A stretch of 64,000 bases of DNA, taken from contig NZ_JACSET010000013.1 of assembly GCF_014334325.1 (NCBI RefSeq), positions 1 through 64,000 of the forward strand. Reading direction: 5' to 3'. The first letter of the stretch is position 1. Every line of letters starts with the position of its first letter. Both the position numbers and the translations under genes were made by a program. This DNA comes from Treponema sp. Marseille-Q4130. GTDB lineage: Bacteria > Spirochaetota > Spirochaetia > Treponematales > Treponemataceae. A model generated the notes under the pieces. That model had not been told where the DNA came from. It searched no databases and was given only the letters and a program-made list of their open reading frames with translations. This document shows positions 36,988 through 47,409 of this stretch, one piece after another.

Positions 36988-39861
36988 ATGCAGCGATTTT
37001 TTAAGCATCCGAGGATCATCATCGTCGTATGCCTCGTCATAACGGGCATACTCGGTATCCAGCTCAAAAACATTAAGCTCGACAATTCGGTCAGACAATT
37101 TTTCCCGCACAAGCACGCATCCTACACGCGTCTCATCGACACGGAAGATATGTTCGGCAGTACCGTCGTCATCGGCGTTTCGCTCGAAACGGACGGCGGA
37201 TCGATCATCACGCCGGAAAACATCGCGATCATCGACCGCATTACGACCGAAATCGAAGCGCTTGAAAACGTGGAAAGCGTCGATTCGCTCACGAACATCG
37301 ACTTTATCTACGGAAAAGATGACGCGCTCATTGCGGGAAACCTTATCGGCGTCGAACGTGAAAACGGACTTTTGCCGCCGCTCACCGACGAGCAGGCGGA
37401 AACGGTAAAGCGAAACATAAACGATTGGGACGATATGTACCGCCGCGTCATCCTCTCCGACGACGGGCGTGCAGCTCAAATGCAGATCATCTTAAAATCG
37501 AACAACCATCCCGATCCGAATGAAGTACACGAATCGGACGAAGCCGTGAGGCAGCGGACGCTCAATGCGATCCGCGACATCGCAGGCAAAGCGACGGAAC
37601 ACACGAACCTCAACGTCATCTATTACGGAGATCCCGTCCTCACCGAAAGCTCGAGAAAATTCATGCTGCGCGATTTGAAAAATCTCATTCCCCTCGTAGT
37701 CGTCGTCGTATTGATCACGCTGTTTTTAAGCTTTAAAACGCTCGACGGAACGCTGCTCCCGCTCATCGCCGTACTCATGGCGACGATATGGACGTGCGGC
37801 ACGATGGCGGCATCGGGCTTTACGTTTACGATCGTCACGAGCATTATCCCCGTCGCGCTCATCGCGTGCGGGTCGGCATACGGTATCCACGTGCTCACGC
37901 ACTACTACGTAGCCCTCGACGATGCGCTCGAAAAAGGAGGTACGCTCACAAAAGAGACACACAAAGCGCTCATCATCGAAAGCCTCAAAGACGTGTTCGT
38001 TGCGGTGTTCCTTGCAGCGCTCACGACGGCGATCGGCTTTATCTCTCTCGTCACAAGCCCCATCGGGCCGCTCCACAGCTTTGCGATATTCACCGCACTC
38101 GGCATCGCCTTTTCATTGATCCTCGCAACGACGTTTATCCCCGCGCTGCTCATGATAAAAAATCCGGAAAAGGTCGGCTACCGCTCGAAGCGCTTTGCAC
38201 AAGCGGAAGCAAAAGTCAAAGCGAAAATCGAAGCGAAGCGGACGGGATCGCACCGCTCAAGCGAAACGCTGTACGGTATCTACAGCTTTTTTTGCGGCTC
38301 TAAACCGCGCATATATCTGTTCTGTACGCTCATCGTGCTGTTTTCCGCAGTCGGTCTTTCGCGCCTGCACATCGATACCGCGCTCATCAGCTATTTTCCG
38401 TATATGTCGAAACTGCGACAGGACGTCTACTACGTCGACGAGCGTTTTGCCGGAACGAATACCGTATACATGATCGTCAAAGGGCCCGTACAAAAAGACG
38501 AAAACGGAAACGATGTACTCGACGAAGACGGAAAGCGCGTGTACGTTGCGGGAAGCATGACAAAACCGGAAATATTAAAACCGCTCGACGATATGCAAAC
38601 CTATCTGCTCGACAACTTCGACAGCGTCGGAAAAATCGTTTCGTTTACGACGTTTATCAAACGCATGAATCAAGTCATGCACGTTCCGTCAACGGAAAAC
38701 GTTTCGGATGCAAGCGCATCCCTGATCGCCGATGACGGCTTCGGAAGCAGCGATTTCGGTTCAAGCGATTTCGGTTCAAGCGATTTCGGAAACGACTTTG
38801 CCGCAAGCGATTTCGGAGGAGATTTCGGTTCTTCTTCCGCACCCGAAACGGAAGCGCCGGTCGATTTTATCGATCCGAATATAGAATATGCGCGAAAACT
38901 TTCCGAAAAGATGTCGGTACGGGATATGCTCGATATGCTTTCTGCAGCGTATGTAGAAGCCGGCGGGCAGCACGCGACCGTCGAAAAAATCGTGTCCGCC
39001 CTCGAAAAGAAATTCAATTACAACGGGATCGATTATTACGAAATCCCCGACGACGTAAAAAAATATCCCGCGGCAAACCGCGAAGCGCTTTCGGATCTCG
39101 TGTCGCAGTATCTGCTCCTCTTTTCGGGTTCGCTCGACCGCTTTGCAAATAACCAGCTCCAGCCGTCGGTTTTGCGCACACAAGTGCAATTCCGCTCTCA
39201 CAGTACGGACGATATCACGCACTTTATCGATACGGCAAGCGACTATGCGCAAAAGCATTTTCCCGAAGGCTATACGGTCGAATTCACCGGTCCGGGAGAA
39301 ATGGAAGCGACGATGACCGATATGGTCATTTCGAGCCAGCTCAAATCGCTGCTCTTTTCGCTCATCTGCGTGTTCATCGTCATCGCCGTTTCGTTCCGCT
39401 CCGGTTGGGCGGGACTGCTCGGCACCGTGCCGCTCGCGTTTACCATTTTGCTCAACTACATGGTCATGGGATTTTCCGGAATCAAGCTCGACCTCGTGAC
39501 GAGCATTCTCGCGTCGGTTGCGATAGGTGTCGGCATCGACTATACGATTCACTTTCTCGAAACGTACCGCGCCGAGAAGGCGCTCACGCGAGACGGAAAA
39601 GACGCGGCAAAGCGGACGTTCAGAAAAAGCGGCATCGGTATCATCACGAACGCGCTCGCCGTCGGACTCGGTTTTCTCGTGCTCTATTTTTCGCAATTCG
39701 TCGTGCTCCGCTTTATCGGCATCCTCGTCGCGATCGTCATGTTCACAAGTTCGGCGCTCGCGATGACGATAATTCCGGGCTTCCTCGTCGCCTACGATCC
39801 GAAATTCATACGAGCGAAAAAGGAGGTCGAACGCGATATCGGCGAAAACGACACGGAATAG
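36988..39861 (+). CDS. RND/MMPL-superfamily exporter
   Basis: 957 residues. The layout is one membrane segment ('IIIVVCLVITGILGIQL'), a periplasmic domain, five segments from about residue 230 ('LIPLVVVVVLITLFLSF'), and the same again in the second half ('LKSLLFSLICVFIVIAVSF'). 'GVGIDYTIHFLETYR' and 'AYGIHVLTHYYVALDDALEK' are the paired signature helices of this lipid-transport subgroup of RND proteins. The second periplasmic loop carries a repeat of DFGSS units (about residues 585-615). Next genes are a LolA-like protein and a beta-barrel, so I infer export of a lipid or lipoprotein-like cargo across the envelope. It is the first gene of the operon with AAGGAG before the ATG. Confidence 0.85.
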   Translation: MQRFFKHPRIIIVVCLVITGILGIQLKNIKLDNSVRQFFPHKHASYTRLIDTEDMFGSTVVIGVSLETDGGSIITPENIAIIDRITTEIEALENVESVDSLTNIDFIYGKDDALIAGNLIGVERENGLLPPLTDEQAETVKRNINDWDDMYRRVILSDDGRAAQMQIILKSNNHPDPNEVHESDEAVRQRTLNAIRDIAGKATEHTNLNVIYYGDPVLTESSRKFMLRDLKNLIPLVVVVVLITLFLSFKTLDGTLLPLIAVLMATIWTCGTMAASGFTFTIVTSIIPVALIACGSAYGIHVLTHYYVALDDALEKGGTLTKETHKALIIESLKDVFVAVFLAALTTAIGFISLVTSPIGPLHSFAIFTALGIAFSLILATTFIPALLMIKNPEKVGYRSKRFAQAEAKVKAKIEAKRTGSHRSSETLYGIYSFFCGSKPRIYLFCTLIVLFSAVGLSRLHIDTALISYFPYMSKLRQDVYYVDERFAGTNTVYMIVKGPVQKDENGNDVLDEDGKRVYVAGSMTKPEILKPLDDMQTYLLDNFDSVGKIVSFTTFIKRMNQVMHVPSTENVSDASASLIADDGFGSSDFGSSDFGSSDFGNDFAASDFGGDFGSSSAPETEAPVDFIDPNIEYARKLSEKMSVRDMLDMLSAAYVEAGGQHATVEKIVSALEKKFNYNGIDYYEIPDDVKKYPAANREALSDLVSQYLLLFSGSLDRFANNQLQPSVLRTQVQFRSHSTDDITHFIDTASDYAQKHFPEGYTVEFTGPGEMEATMTDMVISSQLKSLLFSLICVFIVIAVSFRSGWAGLLGTVPLAFTILLNYMVMGFSGIKLDLVTSILASVAIGVGIDYTIHFLETYRAEKALTRDGKDAAKRTFRKSGIGIITNALAVGLGFLVLYFSQFVVLRFIGILVAIVMFTSSALAMTIIPGFLVAYDPKFIRAKKEVERDIGENDTE

Positions 39862-39869
39862 GAAATAAG

Positions 39870-40146
39870 AAAGTTTTTATAGGAGGACGATCCGAAGCGC
39901 CGTCTGAAATATCGCCGCCGCTTCGGATCTCGAGTTTGCGCGGATGTTTGCGGAAGATAGGTACACGCATCGTTTTGATGGAAATCGAATGAATACGATA
40001 CAGTATATTTTCGCAAACTCGATTATTAAACGTGTGCGCGTACGCGCACGACTAAAAACTTTTTCGGAAATTGATTCGAAGTCCGCGAAAGCGGACACGT
40101 AGAATCAGTTCTTTGCAGAACGAGCCGAAGGCTCTAATTTCCTGCA
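39870..40146 (+). repeat. Structured intergenic repeat element, copy A
   Basis: Starts with AAAGTTTTTATAGGAGG eight bases after the exporter stop. Stems in order: GATCCGAAGCG...CGCTTCGGATC; CGAGTTTGCG...CGCAAACTCG spanning about 90 bases; GTGCGCGTACGCGCAC; then a terminal pair AAAAACTTTTTCGGAAATT...AATTTCCTGCAAAAGTTTTT, whose loop holds GTCCGCGAAAGCGGAC and GAGCCGAAGGCTC. The right end is followed directly by copy B. No protein is encoded. Confidence 0.8.
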
Positions 40147-40380
40147 AAAGTTTTTATCAGGAGGACGATCCGAAGCGCCGTCTGAAATATCGCCGCCGCT
40201 TCGGATCTCGAGTTTGCGCGGATGTTTGCGGAAGATAGGTACACGCATCGTTCTGATGAAAATCGAATGAATACGATGCAGTATATTTTCGCAAACTCGA
40301 TTATTAAACATGTGCGCGTACGCGCACGGCTAAAGAGTTTTGCAGAAAGTTGCAACTTTCTGCAAAACTCTTTATAGGGG
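40147..40380 (+). repeat. Structured intergenic repeat element, copy B
   Basis: Begins AAAAGTTTTTATCAGGAGG and repeats copy A with only about five substitutions over some 175 bases. The terminal hairpin differs in sequence: AAAGAGTTTTGCAGAAAG pairs perfectly with CTTTCTGCAAAACTCTTT (40332-40373), and AGGGGG follows at once as the ribosome-binding site of the next gene. Confidence 0.8.
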
Positions 40381-40385
40381 GTATT

Positions 40386-41213
40386 ATGAAAAAAGCATCG
40401 CTTATTAAAATCACTTTTGCGGCGGCGGCTTTCGCCGCAGCGGGAGCGGCATTTGCCGAAGACGGGCGCGCTGTCATCGAAAAGGTGCTCAACGTAAAAA
40501 AGCCCGCTTACAATCATTCCCTTATTAAAATGGATTTGATTGCAAAAAACGGTTCGATCGAAGAAAGCCGCGAAATCGAAGAATACGGGCGGCACAACGC
40601 ACAGACGGACACGTCGGACGTCGTCATCATTTTCAAAAACAGTACGAACAAGGGCAATATCAACACGCGCTTTCTCCAAATGGAAAAGAAAAACGACGAC
40701 GACGACAAATGGATCTACCTTCCGGCGCTCCGCAATACGCGCCGCGTCAATTCGAGCGAAGGCGATAAATCGTTTACCGGAACGGATGCAACCTACGACG
40801 ATATGTCGACGCGCGAACTCGACGACGACACGCACGAACTGCTGAAAGAAGAGCAAAAAAACGGCTTTGGCTGCTACGTCGTCAAATCGACTCCGGTAAA
40901 CGCGTCGAAAGCGCAGTACAAATACCGCATCCAGTGGATCGATAAAGCGACCTACGTTCCGGTGTACGCGGAAATGTACGATAAAAAAGACGGCTCGCTT
41001 TTAAAAGTGCTCACCGTAGAAAAGCTTAAAAACATCGGCGGCTACAATATTCCGATGTCAAACGTACTCAAAAACGTACAGACGGGTCACTCGACGCGCA
41101 TTGCAATCACGCAGCGGAAAGACGCAAACGGAAACGCGCTTGACAACATCGTCCTCGATAAGCCGATCCCCGACCGCGTATTTACTCAGAGCTTTCTCAA
41201 CACGGGCAAATAA
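40386..41213 (+). CDS. LolA-like outer-membrane lipoprotein-sorting family protein
   Basis: 275 residues from the ATG at 40386, right behind AGGGGG. A signal peptide ('ITFAAAAFAAAGAAFA') is cut before Glu25. The mature protein shows the LolA-like (PF17131-type) pattern: 'KWIYLPALRNTRRVNSSEGD', 'FTGTDATYDDMSTRELDD' and 'VLTVEKLKNIGGYNIPMS'. Such proteins are periplasmic carriers with a hydrophobic groove for lipids. Neighbouring RND exporter and barrel imply the three act together. There is no lipobox, so it should be soluble. The RNA elements directly upstream may set its expression relative to the exporter. Confidence 0.85.
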   Translation: MKKASLIKITFAAAAFAAAGAAFAEDGRAVIEKVLNVKKPAYNHSLIKMDLIAKNGSIEESREIEEYGRHNAQTDTSDVVIIFKNSTNKGNINTRFLQMEKKNDDDDKWIYLPALRNTRRVNSSEGDKSFTGTDATYDDMSTRELDDDTHELLKEEQKNGFGCYVVKSTPVNASKAQYKYRIQWIDKATYVPVYAEMYDKKDGSLLKVLTVEKLKNIGGYNIPMSNVLKNVQTGHSTRIAITQRKDANGNALDNIVLDKPIPDRVFTQSFLNTGK

Positions 41214-45543: not shown

Positions 45544-47409
45544 CTAGCCTCCGAGCCCGCCGGCAATATCGGCGTGGAAAAATTTATTTGCGATCCAATA
45601 AAATAAAAACACGAGGATAAAGAGTACGATTGCGACGGCGCTCGCCGGCTGTTGAAAGCCGTTCGTCGAATACGTGTACGCCATATACGGCAGCGTCGCC
45701 TGCGTCGGCGTCATGAGGATGACGATTAAATCGAGCTCCTTTGCGATGCTTATCAAAATGAGCATGAGACCGCTCATAAAACCGTTTTTGGAAAGCGGAA
45801 ACACGATTTTGAAAAAGCGCGTTAAAAAATTCGCACCTGCGATCTGCCCCGCTTCTTCAAGCTCCGTACTTATCTGGAGCATATTGGACGTACCCGCGCG
45901 GGAAGCAAAGGGCAAATGCTTTACGATCGAAACGAGAACGAGTACGGCAAAGGTACCGTACAGCGACGGAATGAGCGTCAGCGGATGTCCGAAAAACGAA
46001 ACGCGGGTCGGAGATGCGAACATGGCAAGGTACATCGCACCGAAAGCGATCGACGGAATGAGGTACGGGATAAACACGAGCTGTTCGACGAGCTTTCCGC
46101 TTTTTAAATGCCTGCCGCGCGAATTGATATAGCCGATGACCTGTCCGCAGATCGTCGCGATGACGGCCGTCCACGCAACAAGTAAGAGCGTATTTTTGAC
46201 GAACATCCAAAACTGCGGCGATTTGAAAACGCCGGGAAGTCCGTCGGAAATCGCGGGGTCGCTTTCGCCGAGCCAGTGATGCAGCGTAAAATTCGAAAAA
46301 CTGTAATCACCGGCTTGGAGCATAAAGGTTTGATAAAGCAAAATGCCGAGCGGCAGTATGACGGCTACGGCCAAAAACGCGGAGAGCACAACGACCGTCG
46401 GCGCTTTCCACGAACCGAGCGAAAGCGGCGTCGAGCGGCCGCCCTTTCCGCCGATCGTCGCATAGGATTTCCGCGAACCGATGAGCTTTTGATTGACGAA
46501 GATGTTTACCGACGCGATGAGGATGAGCATGATGCTGATCGCAAAACCCGTACCCTTTTGCGATTGAACGGTCGCATAGAGCGAGGTCGAAATCGTATAG
46601 TAGCCGACTTTGAGACCGAGGAAAGACGGAACGCCGAAAGTGCCCATCACTTTTGAAAAAGTCAATATGACGCTCGAAAGGATGGCCGGAAGCACGAGCG
46701 GAAAGGTGATCTTCCTAAGCATAAGCCCCTTCGACGCGCCGACGATCTCTCCCATCTCTTCGAGTTCCGAATTGATCGAACGGAGAGCTGCGGAAACGAG
46801 GAGATACGCATAGGCATAATAATGTATGGAAAGCACGAATACGATCGGAAGCGGCCCGTAGGCGAGCCAGTCGGGAGCGTTGATGCCGAAATAGCTCAAA
46901 AATCCTGCAGCCCCGCCTATCGTTTCGTTACGGAACACGGTGAGCCAAGCCATGGATTTGCACCACGACGGCAGCATATACGGCACGATCACCGCAAGAG
47001 AGAAAAATCTTTTTGCCGGCAGATCGGTACGCACTAAAAGCCACGCGACAAGAGAGCCGATGAGGATCGAAAGCGCACTCGTACAAACGGCGATGACAAG
47101 GGAATTGCGGAGCGGAATCCAAAAGAGATTACGCGAAACATCGCTTGCCAAAAGCCGCTTCCAATAGTACAGCGTAAACTGACCTTCGACCGCACCGCGC
47201 ACGCGACGGAGGTCGGTTTTCGCCATCGTAAAGGTCGTACCGATCATCTGCACGAGAGGCACGACGATGAGATAGCATAAAATCGCTACGGAAACGAGCA
47301 TGATGATATTGTACGGATCGGTAAAATAATTTTTCAGGCGATTTTGCAGCCGCCTCCGCCGGGAAAAGGGCGGAAACGGAGAAGCGGCATCGTTCGAAAC
47401 AGATTGCAT
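45544..47409 (-). CDS. Fused ABC importer permease (FbpB/ThiP type)
   Basis: 621 residues from the ATG at 47409, chosen because GGAG lies six bases upstream; two earlier ATGs have no site. Two BinB permease halves are fused: each has five to six membrane segments and an EAA loop ('EEMGEIVGASKGLMLRKITF' and 'EEAGQIAGANFLTRFFKIVF') that docks on the ATPase. The two-in-one form is usual for iron (FbpB), thiamine (ThiP) and related importers. A leader with a strong terminator-like hairpin lies upstream. Substrate is not decided by the sequence; iron is the most frequent for this arrangement. Confidence 0.9.
   Translation of the reverse strand: MQSVSNDAASPFPPFSRRRRLQNRLKNYFTDPYNIIMLVSVAILCYLIVVPLVQMIGTTFTMAKTDLRRVRGAVEGQFTLYYWKRLLASDVSRNLFWIPLRNSLVIAVCTSALSILIGSLVAWLLVRTDLPAKRFFSLAVIVPYMLPSWCKSMAWLTVFRNETIGGAAGFLSYFGINAPDWLAYGPLPIVFVLSIHYYAYAYLLVSAALRSINSELEEMGEIVGASKGLMLRKITFPLVLPAILSSVILTFSKVMGTFGVPSFLGLKVGYYTISTSLYATVQSQKGTGFAISIMLILIASVNIFVNQKLIGSRKSYATIGGKGGRSTPLSLGSWKAPTVVVLSAFLAVAVILPLGILLYQTFMLQAGDYSFSNFTLHHWLGESDPAISDGLPGVFKSPQFWMFVKNTLLLVAWTAVIATICGQVIGYINSRGRHLKSGKLVEQLVFIPYLIPSIAFGAMYLAMFASPTRVSFFGHPLTLIPSLYGTFAVLVLVSIVKHLPFASRAGTSNMLQISTELEEAGQIAGANFLTRFFKIVFPLSKNGFMSGLMLILISIAKELDLIVILMTPTQATLPYMAYTYSTNGFQQPASAVAIVLFILVFLFYWIANKFFHADIAGGLGG

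Follow-up and report, generated by a model that had tools for sequence, protein, structure and literature searches.

A tandem pair of TD-1-type hairpin elements in a Treponema socranskii-like genome: probable mobile DNA with insertion directed by Shine-Dalgarno sequences

Results

Organization of the tandem locus

The window, i.e., the whole 64,000-nt stretch of DNA that was analyzed, came from a Treponema socranskii-like genome and contained two structured elements (copies A and B) arranged in tandem at 39,882–40,381. The pair was located between an MMPL/RND-type exporter gene (36988–39861, + strand; Pfam MMPL, E 4.9e-43) and a gene for a LolA-like outer membrane lipoprotein-sorting protein (40386–41213, + strand; Pfam LolA_like, E 6.6e-54). 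Direct repeats at 39874–40070 and 40152–40348 shared 94% identity over 197 nt (12 differences); counted from GGAGG, the two copies displayed five differences across 175 nt, as the original prediction had it.

Both copies were on the + strand and harbored four hairpins, H1 and H4 being recognized from inverted repeats and folding, and H2 and H3 from sequence and folding: (i) copy A had left SD (Shine-Dalgarno) GGAGG at 39882–39886, H1 at 39889–39929, H2 in its long form closed by TCGAGTTTGCG/CGCAAACTCGA at 39930–40022, H3 (GTGCGC GTAC GCGCAC) at 40034–40049, and terminal hairpin H4 with an apical insert of about 70 nt made of small hairpins at 40053–40156; and (ii) copy B had H1 at 40167–40207, long-form H2 at 40208–40300, H3 at 40312–40327, H4 as a 22-nt perfect inverted repeat at 40331–40374, and right SD AGGGGG at 40376–40381, which was 4 nt 5' of the ATG at 40386. 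The GGAGG at 40160–40164 was common to both, serving as right SD of copy A and left SD of copy B, and it was directly followed by copy B instead of a gene, in agreement with the earlier observation of an SD-like end with no gene after it. Each copy folded better than all of its 200 dinucleotide shuffles (z -5.45 for copy A and -6.38 for copy B). The inverted repeats and the terminal hairpin that had been proposed for each unit were thus recovered, and so was the difference between the two terminal hairpins, namely the tip insert of copy A and the perfect repeat of copy B.

Most copies of the element retained a small TTC/TGC internal loop in H4. The perfect palindrome of copy B (40331–40374) is what would be expected if a quasi-palindrome had been corrected by template-switch repair. 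The left flank of copy A, AAAGTTTTTATAGGAGG (39870–39886, + strand), resembled the 3' end of H4 plus SD and possibly represents a remnant of an older copy; the matching junction in the close relative G108 read AAAGTTTTTATCAGGAGG.

A third copy (locus L030; 13228–13409, - strand) was detected in the window with covariance model R1 (see below) at 47.8 bits, and the only other R1 match there, beyond these three, was H4 of copy B read backwards; of the four copies named previously, three were accordingly located by the R1 search of the window and a fourth was not found. Structured inserts recurred across copies in H1 (L003, L004, L010, L021, L025 to L028, and L030) and at the tip of H4 (L001 to L004, L006, L010, L012, L015, L023, and L029), and the H1 insert often included a small hairpin with TTTTATGGGAG-like sequence after it.

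Functions carried by the element itself were looked for as well. Neither an element-borne promoter (two promoter-like sites vs 0.9 in shuffles, all on the minus strand) nor an element-borne terminator (one terminator-like site vs 1.4 in shuffles, on the minus strand) was supported. A leader peptide (ATG/ACG ATA AAA AGC GCC GTC TGA after the left SD) was rejected, since it would start only 1 to 2 nt past GGAGG and its ATG was often missing. An internal guide, in which bases 3' of H1 would pair with the left flank, had single examples (GAAG with CTTC; TTGGA with TCCAA in L038), and no general pattern emerged from 31 further copies of other genomes.

Family size and relationship to Rfam TD-1 and TD-2

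Copy A as a DNA query gave at least 57 matches in its own genome, with 40 of 110 candidates scored. Model R1, built from 24 aligned short copies (alignment A1) and including H1, found at least 111 places in that genome at E<=1 (150 of 1937 candidates scored) and at least 95 at E<=1e-3, so that the search with a covariance model that had been suggested did yield numerous further copies. Near-identical copies preceded different genes, e.g., 97% identity over 377 nt. Across the genus, at least 86 of 196 genomes had an R1 match at E<=1e-4; the filters of this search were stricter, and no more than 14 candidates were scored for each genome. The assemblies of T. socranskii ATCC 35536 (L070) and G108 (L128) broke at or inside the element, and short-read genomes would therefore probably undercount its copies.

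The whole-window Rfam scan at gathering scores gave no match. At relaxed thresholds, copies A and B each matched TD-1 (RF03155, clan CL00124) with 39.5 bits and E 8e-5 over model positions 1 to 120; this was below the gathering score of 64.5, and the H2–H3–H4 architecture of the whole model was present. The order of hairpins, the H4 core, and the 3' edge were the same in TD-1 and the window copies, but the latter had a long H2, copy A additionally had the H4 insert, and the Rfam model lacked the 5' arm of H1. TD-1 matched at least 78 places in the own genome at E<=0.1, six of them above the cut-off (65.1 to 79.3 bits), and 41 of 118 genomes of the genus, while a control set of 14 genomes gave a single match under the cut-off. 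The new RNA family that had been anticipated is thus one already deposited in Rfam.

TD-2 (RF03162, of the same clan) matched the same elements but on the opposite strand: across three scans run with E limits of 0.5 or 0.05 (2 + 12 + 15 matches, three of them above the cut-off), all 29 matches were antisense to TD-1/R1 copies and covered the H1–H2 half. Examples included L065, L047, L032, L269, L267, and L016. As judged from these matches, TD-1 and TD-2 seem to be the two strands of one element class, whereas Rfam files TD-1 as Cis-reg and TD-2 as an sRNA gene. A literature search on TD-1/TD-2 found no paper in the library covered and with the terms used, and neither word occurred in the main text of a 2010 paper taken as their source.

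Insertion classes and gene context

In total, 103 copies (95 model matches plus eight DNA matches) were assigned to 85 sites, 11 of which held more than one copy. The 71 sites with flanking sequence were binned by rule, with a few sites misbinned, into two classes: (i) SD class, with GTTTTTA-type ends plus SD, at 38 sites; and (ii) AAGG class, comprising the rest with mostly TTTTAAGG-type ends, at 33 sites. In the SD class, the copies lay in one orientation relative to the motif, and a start codon followed the right-hand SD at a distance of 2 to 13 nt at 34 of the 38 sites, compared to 67 of 362 GGAG occurrences in the window under the same rule (frames of at least 60 aa; equal distance window for sites and control). 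In the AAGG class, 24 of 33 copies began between -40 and +60 nt from the stop codon of the upstream frame, 15 of 33 had a start within 60 nt, and the copies were often found at gene 3' ends. The genes downstream of the copies examined were unrelated, encoding triosephosphate isomerase, cytidylate kinase, a flagellar rod protein, a nitroreductase, a permease, and others; a common gene set at orthologous places, as a cis-regulatory RNA would have, was not found for the element.

Two copies were located inside rpn-like frames: C5:45717 (45717–45879, L057) and C10:222288 (222288–222450, L062). In each frame, the element was placed at ...AAGGAGG and was followed by ATGAATATG or ATAAATATG plus the C-terminal part; the split pieces were assigned by likeness to the intact paralogue C13:221519 (L051), which matched Pfam Transposase_31 at 24.8 bits (cut-off 21). 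The insertion point in both frames was an internal GGAGG before ATG, through which intact paralogues continued, e.g., ...GGGAGGTGATGAATATG at C1:42262 (L083). The SD thus appears to be targeted even within coding sequence. In E. coli, the RBS of separately translated RpnS is placed at K240–E241...M244 of RpnA (PMC10327210), and the KEVM place here would correspond to that internal site. Both rpn copies belonged to one subtype and might therefore have arisen when a gene that was split beforehand was duplicated. Several copies of this subtype were associated with rpn/Transposase_31-like genes or gene ends, lying either ahead of them or within them; the further loci were C13:221519, C1:42262, C7:4322 (L023), and C16:100769 (L086).

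Presence and absence in relatives

The sequence comparison was applied to G108, whose exporter gene shared 98% identity across 962 nt. The flanks on either side of 20 filled sites of the own genome (13 of SD class and seven of AAGG class) were used as queries: (i) 10 sites were empty in G108, nine of them spanned by a single match and C13:193104 having its aligned flanks separated by 28 nt of different sequence; (ii) one, C16:101373, held a copy without its middle; (iii) four were filled (C10:71709, C11:108589, C13:99437, and, at 86.5% identity, C12:204085); and (iv) five had no clear state (C11:187417, C12:136367, C15:154772, C3:59628, and C1:83101). In the reverse comparison, 20 G108 sites were checked against the own genome, where three were empty (L168, L170, and L173), one was probably empty (L180), 10 were beside an own copy, and six had no clear state. 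The internal deletion at C16:101373 indicates that losses do occur, and an empty site could in principle reflect precise loss, polarity being read here from pairwise comparison.

At the window site itself, G108 contained copy A, inside which its contig stopped. The LolA-like protein was 99% identical to that of T. socranskii ATCC 35536. The contig of this strain started 19 nt before the gene with an apparent H4 end plus SD, so the strain probably has the element there too. Among six other relatives with sequence 5' of the LolA-like gene, an R1 copy was present only in T. berlinense (L073), and L071 and L072 had a plain SD before the gene. In the sequence covered, none of another 28 exporter loci (L129 to L156) was matched by R1 at E<=0.1.

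Junctions and probable target duplication

The cleanest junctions displayed a copy after one SD and a second SD at its 3' end, with 4 to 8 bases shared by the two flanks. The empty site by the triosephosphate isomerase gene read TTTCTAC-AGGAG-TTTTTATG, and in the filled site the element was flanked by AGGAG left and right. Comparable junctions were GAGAGGA at C11:106624 (flagellar rod gene), AGGAGTTG at C14:172686, and GGAG at C15:186385 and at G108 site L173; the target-site duplication was thus clean at five SD-class sites. At C17:12346, GGAG was shared and the spacer to the start codon had diverged. The duplication was not clean at C15:86091, at the four empty AAGG-class sites C2:79898, C13:136377, C11:301046, and C13:193104, or at G108 sites L170 and L180. 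The empty counterpart of G108 site L168 already contained AAAAGTTTTATGGAGG, an end-like remnant that may derive from an earlier copy.

For each copy in alignment A4 (see below), the left flank was matched with the right one, and the result was compared to shuffled pairs; 25 tandem copies and three repeated flank pairs had been removed from the 110 copies beforehand. The flank match, in terms of shared strings, was 5.39 vs 4.45 in the SD class (n=31) and 4.51 vs 4.05 in the AAGG class (n=51), values that 0 of 1000 shuffles reached in either case, which supports target duplication. Where a site shared only GGAG, an element-borne 3' end fits as well as duplication.

The inverted repeats at the ends, formed by the H1 5' arm and the H4 3' arm, were short and imperfect (ATAAAAA in the SD class and TTAAA-like in the other). 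Ends of the same copy were more alike than shuffled ends (5.22 vs 4.69; 0 of 2000 shuffles; n=100), as would be expected if one protein recognized both H1 and H4.

Stem pairing without strand preference

Alignment A4, in which the own genome, G108, and about 30 other genomes were represented by 110 distinct copies and which was fitted to the structure with an RNA model, contained the compensatory stem changes that the original prediction had called for: 42 of 44 pairs had changes on both sides, with 900 cells vs 270 in shuffled alignments, and 92.2% of cells were paired vs 72.5% in shuffles. In the sequence-based A1 (24 rows), four of five covariation measures exceeded nearly all shuffles; the exception was the number of further pair types (32 vs 38.4, with 500 of 500 shuffles as high). 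Compensatory changes alone do not mean RNA.

RNA tolerates G-U pairs and hardly A-C. In the stems of the element, G-U and A-C mismatches were 120:93 over the 110 rows and 66:56 when counted per cluster (36 clusters at 75% identity), compared to 13:0 in a small control of nine tRNAs from the loci retrieved (Fisher p 0.0007, the element cells not being independent); fitting with an RNA model should favor G-U, i.e., lean the opposite way. In H2 and H3 taken jointly, A-C was even the commoner of the two (27 cells vs 17 G-U). With G-U about as frequent as A-C and TD-2 always antisense, the constraint seems to act on DNA, and TD-1 and TD-2 would be the two strands of one element.

Discussion

The evidence makes it probable that the tandem units belong to a TD-1-type mobile DNA element whose insertion is directed by SD sequences. 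Each unit would be a small, non-autonomous, four-hairpin element that inserts right 3' of an SD-like GGAG/AGGA in a single orientation relative to this motif. The second SD, found at the 3' end, would most likely arise because 4 to about 8 bases of the target are duplicated; with the SD duplicated, the downstream gene would keep its ribosome-binding site. A tandem would result when a second copy enters the SD that borders the first. The mobile, SD-carrying module that the original prediction offered as one option fits the many copies, the sites empty in the relative, and the SD on both sides. We infer that an enzyme acting in trans recognizes H1 and H4 as folded single-stranded DNA, and mobilization through such a form is conceivable, if somewhat short of an even chance. 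No transposase was tied to the element, and among the copies read there was no autonomous one, i.e., none whose ends enclosed a gene. As a speculative candidate for the enzyme, the Rpn/Transposase_31 nucleases may be named, several copies being carried by their genes here.

Elements of the IS200/IS605 type have hairpin ends and insert in fixed orientation to a short target. The present element shares these properties and lies 3' of a short motif, and it might be a relic or derivative of this group, in which case a Y1 transposase would recognize the hairpin ends, insertion would occur 3' of GGAG with no true duplication, and the right-hand GGGAG would be the element's own end. This would account for the right end GGGAG opposite a left flank AGGAG at C15:186385, C17:12346, and L173, and a Y1_Tnp fragment was the only trace of the enzyme in the own genome (G000). 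With the searches for the element, Y1_Tnp, and RVT_1 taken as covering the same 196 genomes, Y1_Tnp was found at E<=1e-8 in 51 genomes, and the element was commoner in these (30 of 51) than in those without it (56 of 145; p 0.014, not corrected for kinship). However, 56 of the 86 element-bearing genomes had no Y1_Tnp at E<=1e-8, the element-rich and nearly complete G049, G109, G123, and G042 were not among the Y1_Tnp matches listed, the Y1_Tnp of G120 carried stop codons, and flanks shared beyond GGAG (GAGAGGA, AGGAGTTG, and TTGGAGG) favor duplication. An IS200/IS605 origin is therefore regarded as unlikely.

A cis-regulatory RNA, i.e., a 5'-leader whose SD-adjacent terminal hairpin controls translation of the downstream gene, would agree with the sense orientation next to an SD, found at 34 of 38 SD-class sites, with the strong covariation, and with the Rfam type of TD-1. 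It is nevertheless quite improbable, because the downstream genes examined were unrelated, 10 of 20 sites were empty in a close relative, G-U was in no clear excess over A-C, AAGG-class copies were often 3' of genes, and copies resided within rpn frames. The RNA device proposed earlier is thus unsupported as the primary nature of the unit, given the unrelated genes, the half of the sites lacking a copy, and pairing kept to a similar degree on both strands; a later regulatory role at single genes, the LolA-like gene included, may nonetheless have been acquired.

Copies might also spread with no dedicated enzyme, through slippage, gene conversion, and SD-to-SD recombination. In favor of this are the 11 of 85 sites with more than one copy and the tendency of hairpin arms to undergo template-switch repair, which the perfect H4 of copy B suggests; against it, whole elements inserted at unrelated sites that have no more than 4 to 8 bases in common are difficult to obtain in this way, and we give this explanation very little weight. 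Least probable of all is spread via an SD-ended RNA copy that would anneal to the complementary strand of another SD and be reverse transcribed at that place: the sense orientation, the shared flanks of variable length, the SD at the RNA 3' edge, and the element's presence in 29 of 52 genomes with RVT_1 at E<=1e-8 vs 57 of 144 without it (p 0.051, uncorrected for kinship) speak for it, but G000 had no RVT_1 match at that threshold, 57 of the 86 element-bearing genomes had none either, G049, G109, G123, and G042 were not among the matches listed, and the pairing carried no RNA signature.

The preferred reading, a mobile DNA element inserted at SD sequences, sets the family apart from known systems in several respects. 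Several element-rich genomes not being among the Y1 matches listed, together with the signs of target duplication, would distinguish it from the IS200/IS605 type. Bacterial MITEs are described in a review (PMC10969869) as short, without a gene of their own, and with terminal inverted repeats and target duplication. The element resembles them in being short, gene-less, and polymorphic for presence or absence, with terminal inverted repeats and target duplication, but differs in that its inverted repeats are short, imperfect, and themselves arms of hairpins, it targets the SD, its internal hairpins are conserved, and no parent transposon was seen among the copies read. A fuller proposal would take TD-1 and TD-2 as strands of one class of hairpin DNA, moved as folded single-stranded DNA by a host enzyme not known for such activity that targets and copies the ribosome-binding site, so that insertion into operons is silent; we put it forward as speculative, and as a whole it is rather unlikely to hold in every part.

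The comparison of G-U with A-C mismatches in stems suggests itself as a check for other orphan RNA motifs. If the mobile-element reading is true, two curated RNA families of unknown function become one mobile DNA element, and the presence of TD-1/TD-2 before many unrelated Treponema genes is explained. An element that targets the ribosome-binding site and leaves one on each side would represent an unusual way to inhabit operons without breaking them.
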